40,568 bases of DNA from Kiritimatiellia bacterium. GTDB lineage: Bacteria; Verrucomicrobiota; Kiritimatiellia; RFP12; UBA1067. Made by a program: the position numbers and the translations under genes. The first letter of the stretch is position 1, and each line of letters begins with the position of its first letter. Of this stretch, positions 13,843-32,152 are shown piece by piece. A model generated the notes under the pieces. It saw only the letters and a list, made by a program, of their open reading frames with translations. It had not been told where the DNA came from and did no database searches. The DNA lies in contig JAFXTB010000069.1 of NCBI GenBank assembly GCA_017525225.1, positions 1-40,568 on the forward strand, in the 5' to 3' direction.

Positions 13843-14324
13843 GGCTGGGCCGGTCCATGGCAGCGGCACTTCACGCCGGCGGATTTGAACATGTCCTTGA
13901 CCGTGTCCACGAACGCCGTGTAGTCACCGGCATAGACCACCTCCCTTATGCCGGCGTTGATGATCAGCTTGGCACACGTGAGACACGGCGAGAGGGTGAT
14001 GTAGATCGTGGCGCCAGCAACGTCTATGCCGTAACGCGCCGCCTGGCAGATGGCGTTCTGCTCCGCGTGGACGCACAGGCACTCCTCGAGATGGCTGCCC
14101 GACGGCGAATGGCCCGCGCACCGCGGACATCCACCGTCGAAACAGTTCTTCACGCCGCGCGGCGTGCCGTTGTAGCCCGTGGAGAGAAGATGGTTCTCCT
14201 TGACTATCACGGCGGCCACCTGGCGACGAGAGCAGTTGGAACGCTTCGCCACCACGCGGGCTATCTCCATGAAGTAGTCGTCCCAGCCGGGACGTGGATC
14301 CTTAGTCTTGGTTCGGCGAGCCAT
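13839..14324 (-). CDS. dCMP deaminase (ComEB-like cytidine/deoxycytidylate deaminase family)
   Basis: 161 aa, usual for the family. The zinc site is complete: CVHAEQ with His86 and catalytic Glu88, and PCLTC with Cys114 and Cys117. The loop STGYNGTPRGVKNC and the extra Cys/His cluster (CFDGGCPRCAGH) are typical of dCMP deaminases. The enzyme converts dCMP to dUMP, the substrate for dTMP synthesis. The ATG is preceded by AGGA at short distance, right after a 54-bp tandem repeat. The stop overlaps the start of the helicase gene by four bases, so the two are translationally coupled. Confidence 0.93.
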   Translation of the reverse strand: MARRTKTKDPRPGWDDYFMEIARVVAKRSNCSRRQVAAVIVKENHLLSTGYNGTPRGVKNCFDGGCPRCAGHSPSGSHLEECLCVHAEQNAICQAARYGIDVAGATIYITLSPCLTCAKLIINAGIREVVYAGDYTAFVDTVKDMFKSAGVKCRCHGPAQP

Positions 14325-14333
14325 AAGATCCTA

Positions 14334-14387
14334 CCCAACCTTCACCACCTTCACAACCCTCACAACCTTCACAACCTTCACCACCTT
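14334..14387 (-). repeat. Six tandem 9-bp repeats (minus-strand consensus AAGGTTGTG)
   Basis: Between the propeller gene stop and the deaminase start lie six contiguous 9-bp units. On the minus strand they read AAGGTGGTG, AAGGTTGTG, AAGGTTGTG, AGGGTTGTG, AAGGTGGTG and AAGGTTGGG. Every unit contains an AGG-like core, so the tract may also affect ribosome loading on the deaminase gene. The same unit family recurs at 31508-31543. Confidence 0.9.
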
Positions 14388-14399
14388 GCCATCCAAAGG

Positions 14400-15518
14400 T
14401 CAGTCAAGGTCAATAACGCTCAGCGTATGGATCGGATCGTTGACCGTGTTGACAAGCCCAGGGAAGGCCATGTCGAAATTGACCACTATGAGCTTGCGCT
14501 TGCCGTCCTTGTCCTTCCAGATGAGCGGTTCGCACGGCTGGTCCAGGAGGCCGTCCGCGCCGTCGGTGTCGCCGTTCTTCCACAGTTCACCGAACTGCCT
14601 GCGGGCTATGTCCCAGGTGTGCACGGCGTTCAGGGCGGAGTCCGTCATGATGATGCGGTTGGCCTTCGCGTCGAAGCAGATGCCGTCGCAGCAGGGGAAG
14701 CGGGCAGGATCCTCGAACAGCAGCTCGGGCTTGCCGTACGAGCCGTCGCCGTTGCGCTTCATCGTGTAGAAGCGGCCCGAGCCGAACGTCCCGAAGTAGA
14801 GGTCGCCCTTGTCCGTGATCGCAAGGCCGTCCGCGCCGGAATTGTCGCCGCCGCGTCCTGGCAGTGGCTTCGTCTCGGTGTTGCCGAGGAAGTAGGGATC
14901 CTTCTTGTAGTCCTCCTTTGGCAGCAGCTTCACGGCCCTCGTGCGGCAGTCGCTCATCGGGATGCGGTACACGCCGCCGAGCCCGACCTCGCCAGGCAGG
15001 TCGAAGTACGTGTCCGTGAAGAACAGGTCGCCCTCGTAGAAGCGGATGGCGTTCGCGAGTTTGATGTTCTCGACCACCGTCTCGATGCGAAGGGCCTCCT
15101 TGGTGTCGGGGTCTATCACCACGCGCATGATGCGGCTGGCATAGTCCTTGGACAGGAAGTACTGGTTGTCGCAGTAGTAGAGGTTGCCGTCGGGACCGTA
15201 CTCGATGCCCATGGGGCAACCGCGGCCTGTCTTGGGCGAGATCTGCCCGGCGCAGAAGACGCTCCACTTGCCCGTCTTGAAGCAGCGCTTCATGACGACG
15301 CCCGCGTACGACTTGTTGATTAGGTTGGGCGCCGACATGAAGATGTTGCCGTCGCGGTCCTGCGTGAGGCCGTCAGGCAGGTTCACCACGTCGCCGAACC
15401 GCTTGAAAAGGCGTGGACGGTACTTCTCATCGCCCCACGTCTGCACCTTCCCAGCCGCTCCGGCCGCGAAACCGGCCGCAAGCGCAGCGGCCACCGCGAA
15501 TCTGAATGTTGCGTTCAT
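14400..15518 (-). CDS. Secreted SMP-30/gluconolactonase-like six-bladed beta-propeller protein
   Basis: 372 aa with a signal peptide (residues 1-23, Ala-rich core). The rest is a string of propeller blades with the pattern (L)P-D-G-L-T-Q-D-R-D-G-N-I-F, GIEYGPDGNLYYCDN, GADGLAITDKGDLYFG and CDGICFDAKANRIIMTD. This matches the SMP-30/gluconolactonase/LRE region or NHL-type propellers. Family members include sugar lactonases and streptogramin lyase-like proteins; the present activity is unknown. The ATG at 15518 is preferred over 15527 and 15539 because AAAGGA lies eight bases upstream. It follows tpiA by 27 bases, so it is probably co-transcribed from the tpiA promoter. Confidence 0.85.
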   Translation of the reverse strand: MNATFRFAVAAALAAGFAAGAAGKVQTWGDEKYRPRLFKRFGDVVNLPDGLTQDRDGNIFMSAPNLINKSYAGVVMKRCFKTGKWSVFCAGQISPKTGRGCPMGIEYGPDGNLYYCDNQYFLSKDYASRIMRVVIDPDTKEALRIETVVENIKLANAIRFYEGDLFFTDTYFDLPGEVGLGGVYRIPMSDCRTRAVKLLPKEDYKKDPYFLGNTETKPLPGRGGDNSGADGLAITDKGDLYFGTFGSGRFYTMKRNGDGSYGKPELLFEDPARFPCCDGICFDAKANRIIMTDSALNAVHTWDIARRQFGELWKNGDTDGADGLLDQPCEPLIWKDKDGKRKLIVVNFDMAFPGLVNTVNDPIHTLSVIDLD

Positions 15519-31183: not shown

Positions 31184-32152
31184 CTACATCACCTTGAGCG
31201 CCCACTCCGGCCAGGGCGTCTCGATACGGCATGGCTCGCCCGAGACGGGATGCCTGAACGCCGCGGCGAGCGCATGGAGCCTGTGGCCCACCATGTCCTC
31301 CACCGCAAACGCGCCATAGAGTCTGTCGTTGACTATGTGCATCCCCGCAGCCGCCAGCTGGGCGCGTATCTGGTGGGTCACGCCTGTGCGGATGGTCACC
31401 TCAAGAAGCGTCAGCTCCTCCATGCCGCAACGGGTGATGGCAAGCGGACGGAAAGCGGTTATGGCGCGCATCGGCCTCTCTTCCGATCTAATGCCCTTAA
31501 CTCCATTCTCAACCTTCCCAACCCTCTCAACCTTCTCAACCTTCCTCACTATCATTCGGCAATATGGCAGACTGGCATCGTGAACCAGGTCGTTCTCAAG
31601 CGTACCGCCTGCGGCCACGGTTCCCTCCACAAGCGCAAGATAGGTCTTCACGACCTCGCGCCCCGCGAACTGCGCGCGCATGGCTTCGAACGCCGCATCC
31701 GTGCGCGCCACCAGAACAAGCCCCGATGTGCCCGAATCGATTCGGTGGAGCGCCCCTGCCATCAAAGGGCCGTCGCCGACATCGGATACTTCCGGCCAGC
31801 GCGCAACGACGCCGTTCATGAGCGAGCCGGTCTCATGGCGCGACAGCGGCTGCACCGGCATGCCTGCAGGCTTATCGAAGGCAAGCAGCGCCGCGTCTTC
31901 AAAAATCGCCCTCGCCGGAATGGAACGGTCCGGGCGGACGCGATTGTCGGCAGCCTCCGCGAGTTCCGCCACCTCCACCACTTCGCCGCCATGCAGCCTG
32001 CGACCCTTCTCGGCGGGTCTGCCATCCACCTTGACCGCGCCGGACGCGCAGGCCTCGCGCGCAAATGCACGCGTCGTGGAAGGAAAGCGCATAAGCAAGG
32101 CGGCATCCAGCCGGATGCCGCCCGATGCCGTGAACGAGACATTCTCAATCAT
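31184..32152 (-). CDS. RluA-family rRNA/tRNA pseudouridine synthase with a repeat insertion
   Basis: 322 aa. Residues about 10-70 form an S4-like RNA-binding domain (LDAALLMRFPSTTRAFAREACASGAVKVDG is split over this region). The catalytic motif HRIDSGTSGLVLVA lies at 136-149 with Asp139 as nucleophile, followed by KTYLALVEG and TGVTHQIRAQLAAAG. The enzyme isomerises uridine to pseudouridine in rRNA or tRNA; the target is unknown. Residues 203-227 (KVEKVERVGKVENGVKGIRSEER region) are an extra stretch between two core strands, encoded partly by four tandem 9-bp units, with codon use unlike the rest. The ATG overlaps the lipoprotein stop by eight bases and lacks a Shine-Dalgarno, so it is probably translationally coupled. 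Confidence 0.92.
   Translation of the reverse strand: MIENVSFTASGGIRLDAALLMRFPSTTRAFAREACASGAVKVDGRPAEKGRRLHGGEVVEVAELAEAADNRVRPDRSIPARAIFEDAALLAFDKPAGMPVQPLSRHETGSLMNGVVARWPEVSDVGDGPLMAGALHRIDSGTSGLVLVARTDAAFEAMRAQFAGREVVKTYLALVEGTVAAGGTLENDLVHDASLPYCRMIVRKVEKVERVGKVENGVKGIRSEERPMRAITAFRPLAITRCGMEELTLLEVTIRTGVTHQIRAQLAAAGMHIVNDRLYGAFAVEDMVGHRLHALAAAFRHPVSGEPCRIETPWPEWALKVM
31508..31543 (-). repeat. Four tandem 9-bp repeats in frame inside the RluA-family gene
   Basis: Minus-strand units in coding register are AAGGTTGAG, AAGGTTGAG, AGGGTTGGG and AAGGTTGAG, encoding KVE-KVE-RVG-KVE. The consensus is the same as at 14334-14387 (AAGGTTGNG), including one AGGGTTG variant in each tract. Confidence 0.9.

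Follow-up and report, generated by a model that had tools for sequence, protein, structure and literature searches.

Four tandem copies of a nine-nucleotide unit lie in frame inside an RluA/RluD-type pseudouridine synthase gene of a Kiritimatiellia bacterium, and they belong to a degenerate repeat family that is dispersed over the genome, mostly between genes and close to stop codons. The window, that is, the whole stretch of 40,568 nucleotides that was analysed, contains the following features:

31184 to 32152, minus strand: RluA/RluD-family pseudouridine synthase with S4 and PseudoU_synth_2 domains (Pfam), an intact ORF of 322 residues.
31544 to 31549, minus strand: GTGAGG (codons V R), on the 5' side of the array and possibly a partial, degenerate unit, at the position of the relatives' conserved Asp codon.
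31508 to 31543, minus strand: four-unit nonamer array AAGGTTGAG/AAGGTTGAG/AGGGTTGGG/AAGGTTGAG, from the sequence and TRF, coding for KVEKVERVGKVE (residues 204-215).
31470 to 31507, minus strand: 3' flank of the array, A+T-richer and non-repetitive (NGVKGIRSEER...), which can be aligned only poorly with the relatives' hypervariable loop.
14336 to 14387, minus strand: second array of the nonamer family (TRF), intergenic, with a dCMP-deaminase-like gene starting at 14324 on one side and the stop of an SGL-like gene at 14400 on the other.

On the plus strand, positions 31508-31543 read CTCAACCTT CCCAACCCT CTCAACCTT CTCAACCTT, which on the minus strand gives KVE KVE RVG KVE in the frame of the gene, and TRF scores a 9-bp array at this locus. 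The four in-frame units reported in the preliminary description are thereby confirmed, although the interval it gave, 31470-31543, is too long, since 31470-31507 is flank without any repeat. The second locus that it ascribed to the same repeat is also real. Matches to AAGGTTGAGAAGGTTG with at most three mismatches number 10 in the window against 0.16 expected from shuffles, and in the whole genome a three-unit pattern gives 65 matches and its reversed control none; chance is excluded by these two controls as the origin of the rluA array.

The list of arrays was derived from the pattern matches and the stretches surrounding them, with degenerate units permitted at array edges; as degenerate arrays may be missed, the count is a minimum, and at least 54 arrays occur in the genome, on both strands, each with 3 to 12 units (mostly 5-6, the commonest length being 5). 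Both loci of the window are therefore members of one family dispersed genome-wide, as had been proposed, while its status as an "element" is not established. Over 271 units, the consensus is GGTTG, followed by T (139), A (75) or G (53), then GA, and finally A (158) or G (112). With position 9 being either A or G throughout the genome, the AGGGTTG variant, initially taken as a sign of kinship between the two loci, is not diagnostic. The longest arrays reach about 110 bp, and the 54 places, each with unique flanks, are spread over many contigs. This dispersal bears on a possible assembly or sequencing artefact. Beside the rluA array, at 31478-31489 on the minus strand, the gene contains in frame the 12-mer AGATCGGAAGAG, which is identical to the first 12 nucleotides of the Illumina universal adapter. 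The match is probably a coincidence, 0.24 matches being expected in the window at up to one mismatch; moreover, the 12-mer is followed by normal rluA sequence with no further adapter, and an artefactual origin of the arrays is exceedingly improbable.

All arrays draw on one genome-wide pool of unit variants, a fact left unexplained if each array had expanded locally and independently from a random seed. Units two positions apart within an array differ at 1.33 positions on average, against 1.67 +/- 0.06 after permutation (0 of 500 permutations as low), and adjacent units differ at 1.57 against 1.67, that is, nearly as much as random pairs. A period-18 substructure is shown by these values, as expected from the duplication of two-unit blocks; the near-random difference between neighbours counts against slippage in its simple single-unit form, which does not predict it. 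In three places (G000:C13:16967-17106, C100:1779-1934 and C121:10142-10362), nonamer arrays of opposite orientation lie close together, making long hairpins possible.

Of the 54 arrays, 45 are intergenic, 8 lie inside ORFs, including a weak match of three units, and 1 is overlapping. Coding density is 0.918 in the sampled array-free contigs, drawn from outside the array list and used for this estimate and for other repeat families only, so the arrays strongly avoid coding DNA. Nearly all intergenic arrays fall in codirectional gaps. When one array per gap is considered, the upstream stop is no more than 10 bp away in 18 of 27 cases, against 9.2 expected under uniform placement, and the stop is closer than the start in 21 arrays and the start closer in 4 (p=0.0009), with the reservation that the gene finder is an ad hoc one based on codon usage, in which stops are exact, starts approximate and distances to starts rough. 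Relative to the genes, 19 arrays are on the same strand and 15 on the opposite one; within 10 bp of stops the figures are 7 and 11. A heptamer family, GTTAGTS, is found in the same genome in runs of 5-16 units, often just after stops (e.g., L173, L181, L119, L102 and L127), and further 8- and 10-mers (AAACTCTC, GRTTGAACWA) occur near nonamer arrays.

The strong adjacency to stop codons, and a placement between aligned ORFs like that of the GGGAATC repeats (PMC4692102), would suit regulatory elements selected after stops, acting in RNA stability, in transcription or translation coupling, or as G-quadruplexes. Nevertheless, without a strand preference there is no fixed RNA sequence under selection, the tracts are mostly GG, a congener does without arrays, and simple avoidance of promoters and genes predicts an equal bias, which together make a regulatory role rather unlikely.

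Seven of the in-gene arrays look genuine, all of them in frame and located in variable loops or, in one case, a tail. The host proteins and array peptides are:

RluA: KVE.
FAD-dependent oxidoreductase: KVE/RVE.
TrmD: KVV/KVE/RVE.
Class II tRNA-synthetase-like EpmA-type protein: PSQ.
TMEM260-like membrane protein: PSQ.
Exosortase: GCEGGE.
Protein without Pfam match, C-terminal tail: PSQ.

The genome-wide search for the unit within coding regions, suggested beforehand, has brought out other genes with in-frame arrays in loops. It could be argued, from the fact that all in-gene arrays are open and confined to loops or the tail, that charged or PSQ-rich linkers are selected at the protein level; however, depending on strand and frame, one DNA family yields three unrelated peptides (KVE, PSQ and GCEGGE), and the majority of arrays lie in non-coding DNA, so that we give this explanation very little credence. 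The statement that a 9-bp unit can invade genes without breaking them is not supported in that form either, as it reflects survivorship: ORFs hold only 8 of the 54 arrays although 92% of the sampled DNA is coding, and some sense frames contain TGA. In comparison with congener G001, the affected region has 81 residues against 54 in the EpmA-like protein, 76 against 69 in the TMEM260-like protein and 68 against 67 in TrmD (59 in most relatives); in the last two, the array takes the place of a loop, and the net gain over the congener is only 7 and 1 residues, respectively. Judging from such alignments, the arrays occupy loops that were already variable, replacing as well as lengthening them.

The RluA protein illustrates this. 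Alignment with homologues, the check proposed at the outset, shows the nonamer tract to be missing from all 29 orthologues examined, and the loop measures 24 residues here and 13 in G001. The expectation of an insert where relatives have a short loop is borne out to that extent, but not as a pure insertion: the residue following the conserved Met-Ile/Val is Val here and Asp in most relatives, and nothing else of the ancestral loop can be recognised. As read from the alignment, the array is a replacement of loop sequence together with the conserved Asp. The protein belongs to the RluA type, with PF00849, the RluA/RluD fold and an intact catalytic HRxD motif (H136, R137 and D139 invariant) all present. 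An AlphaFold2 model built from 28 aligned sequences retains the fold (pLDDT 91.2), its best Foldseek match being E. coli RluD, and the sole segment with pLDDT below 50 comprises residues 206-220, between strands 200-202 and 228-242. According to this model, the array probably forms a charged, disordered loop without special function, and it would most simply be regarded as neutral.

The relatives named in a genome collection are MAGs of Kiritimatiellae and other Verrucomicrobia/Lentisphaerae, mainly from the ruminant gut. In a sample of the phylum, 383 of 387 genomes have no matches, the exceptions being the present genome (G000), G019, G039 and a fourth genome with one single match. A pattern search finds no arrays in congener G001, while G019, of the same family, and G039, of the same order, harbour many arrays of a sister unit, GGTTGAARR; with the same forward pattern, none is found in G031, a congener of G019, or in G048 and G052, congeners of G039. 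The existence of array-free congeners for each of the three genomes indicates that arrays were gained or lost recently and in a patchy manner. The search turned up no second genome of the species, and the intergenic DNA of congener G001 is too divergent to show empty sites. Tandem-repeat content is low in the congener stretches and high in G039. G039 (L151-L160) and G019 (L161-L170) each contain a mixture of 7-9-mer families particular to them (GGTTGAARR, CTTCGAAC, ACTCGTC and GTAGCCT), the 9-mers being mainly intergenic.

This distribution also bears on proposals concerning the source of the arrays. A dedicated templated polymerase, telomerase-like or of the defence reverse transcriptase type, whose products were pasted at breaks, would account for one degenerate unit common to all arrays, and the only RVT_1 gene of the genome is about 5 kb from an array on contig C63. 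Against this, G039, with a similar number of matches, has no RVT_1 match and no template locus was identified; such a polymerase is a most improbable source, and the reverse transcriptase was rejected as array maker, being neither required nor present in array-rich G039. A viral vehicle was also discarded, as most of the IMG/VR matches to the units either belong to another kind of motif, made of three GGTTGGGAA units, or are GGTTGAAGA runs on unrelated contigs that have the look of coding sequence. In viral contigs L281, L284, L287 and L290, three GGTTGGGAA units occur as inverted pairs beside G+C-rich stretches, an arrangement that suggests a distinct motif of iteron-like or end-like nature.

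More needs to be said about a discrete mobile element, MITE-like or resembling Rickettsia palindromic elements, that inserts into genes and is spread by a transposase. The arrays are indeed dispersed, lineage-restricted and in frame within genes, and two of them (C24 and C44) have about 45 bp in common, part of it non-repeat flank. In addition, a 9-mer or 7-mer array stands immediately 5' of the GGTAGGG head in about 11 of 47 REP-type palindromes, and in all these cases its strand sense is the same; the genome also encodes a Y1 transposase. On the other hand, the 54 arrays have no common flank or terminal inverted repeat, and gene loops are replaced rather than cleanly interrupted. A composite of decamer, nonamer and palindrome was rejected, since most palindromes lack arrays, and most arrays lack a palindrome. 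The Y1 transposase was likewise rejected as the mover, as Y1 transposases are found in array-free G001, G031 and G048 too. On balance, a mobile element of this sort seems an improbable explanation. The REPIN-like element itself, GGTAGGGCCCGCTCGCCGAGCGGGCCGC followed after about 40 nt by an inverted GGCCGCCTCGGCGAGGCGGCCCTACC, has 49 pattern matches in G000 (e.g., L241, L250 and L117).

The explanation that we favour, and hold to be reasonably probable, is that these are dispersed short tandem repeats that grow by slippage, are seeded by copying and are kept where they do no harm. Arrays would expand and contract through slippage of one- and two-unit blocks, and new ones would be seeded when short sequences are copied from one locus to another, perhaps to fill in DNA as breaks are repaired; this would account for replacement rather than clean insertion. 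Selection would then purge arrays from promoters, conserved domains and sense frames giving TGA, leaving the positions observed. A bolder proposal, which we consider unlikely, is that an active process in some members of the order deposits arrays of species-specific degenerate units (9-mers GGTTGDGAR or GGTTGAARR, 7-mers GTTAGTS) both at the ends of genes and, replacing what was there, in core-enzyme loops; a single DNA family would then be a continuing source of new protein segments in several frames. The spread of dispersed short tandem repeats in bacteria is an old question, and the combination of an array-free congener, two genomes with a sister unit and polarised events in rluA, trmD, the epmA-like and the TMEM260-like genes makes their birth and spread testable. 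The in-gene arrays also show repeat DNA acting as a supplier of new loop sequence in conserved enzymes.

Among known systems, Rickettsia palindromic elements are a repeat family lying in frame in housekeeping genes at tolerated positions, and they are palindromic and of roughly fixed length. The nonamers resemble them in lying in frame within genes, but are direct repeats of variable number and length with neither palindrome nor common ends. The bounding inverted repeats or palindromes of MITEs and REPINs are missing as well: the arrays have no common ends, and the REPIN-like family of this genome is a separate one. Closer in some respects are the tandem repeats of Borgs (PMC9879509), which are likewise recently formed, intergenic as well as in frame in ORFs, and associated with disordered regions, but which arise independently, each array with its own unit, whereas here all loci share one degenerate pool. 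TAACTGA direct repeats, found in marine Beggiatoaceae, cyanobacteria and Bacteroidetes (PMC4679880), are also dispersed, intergenic and patchy across lineages, with a minority in ORFs and many overlapping stops; unlike the nonamers, which follow stops and also enter conserved enzymes, they lie mostly just upstream of starts and, in one orientation, provide stops in all three frames. The GGGAATC/GGGGA(C/T)T heptamers of Xanthomonas and Nostoc, akin to cyanobacterial STRR, are dispersed and non-coding, between aligned ORFs and near stops, with their function unexplained (PMC4692102). The present family shares with them its scattered tandem units, variable copy number, degenerate unit, bias to non-coding gaps between aligned ORFs and stop adjacency. 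It departs from them in being a nonamer without four-unit preference (commonest 5, range 3-12), so that it does not belong to the GGGAATC repeats proper, in showing no strand preference near stops, in having mostly GG rather than GGG tracts, in belonging to another phylum and in having a clear set of its arrays in frame within conserved enzymes. In the literature that was searched, no paper connects such tandem repeats with Kiritimatiellae. By analogy, the nonamer arrays are best read as short tandem repeats of the dispersed type, comparable to the heptamers known from Xanthomonas, Nostoc and Beggiatoaceae; what is new is the unit, the host and the clear in-frame set.
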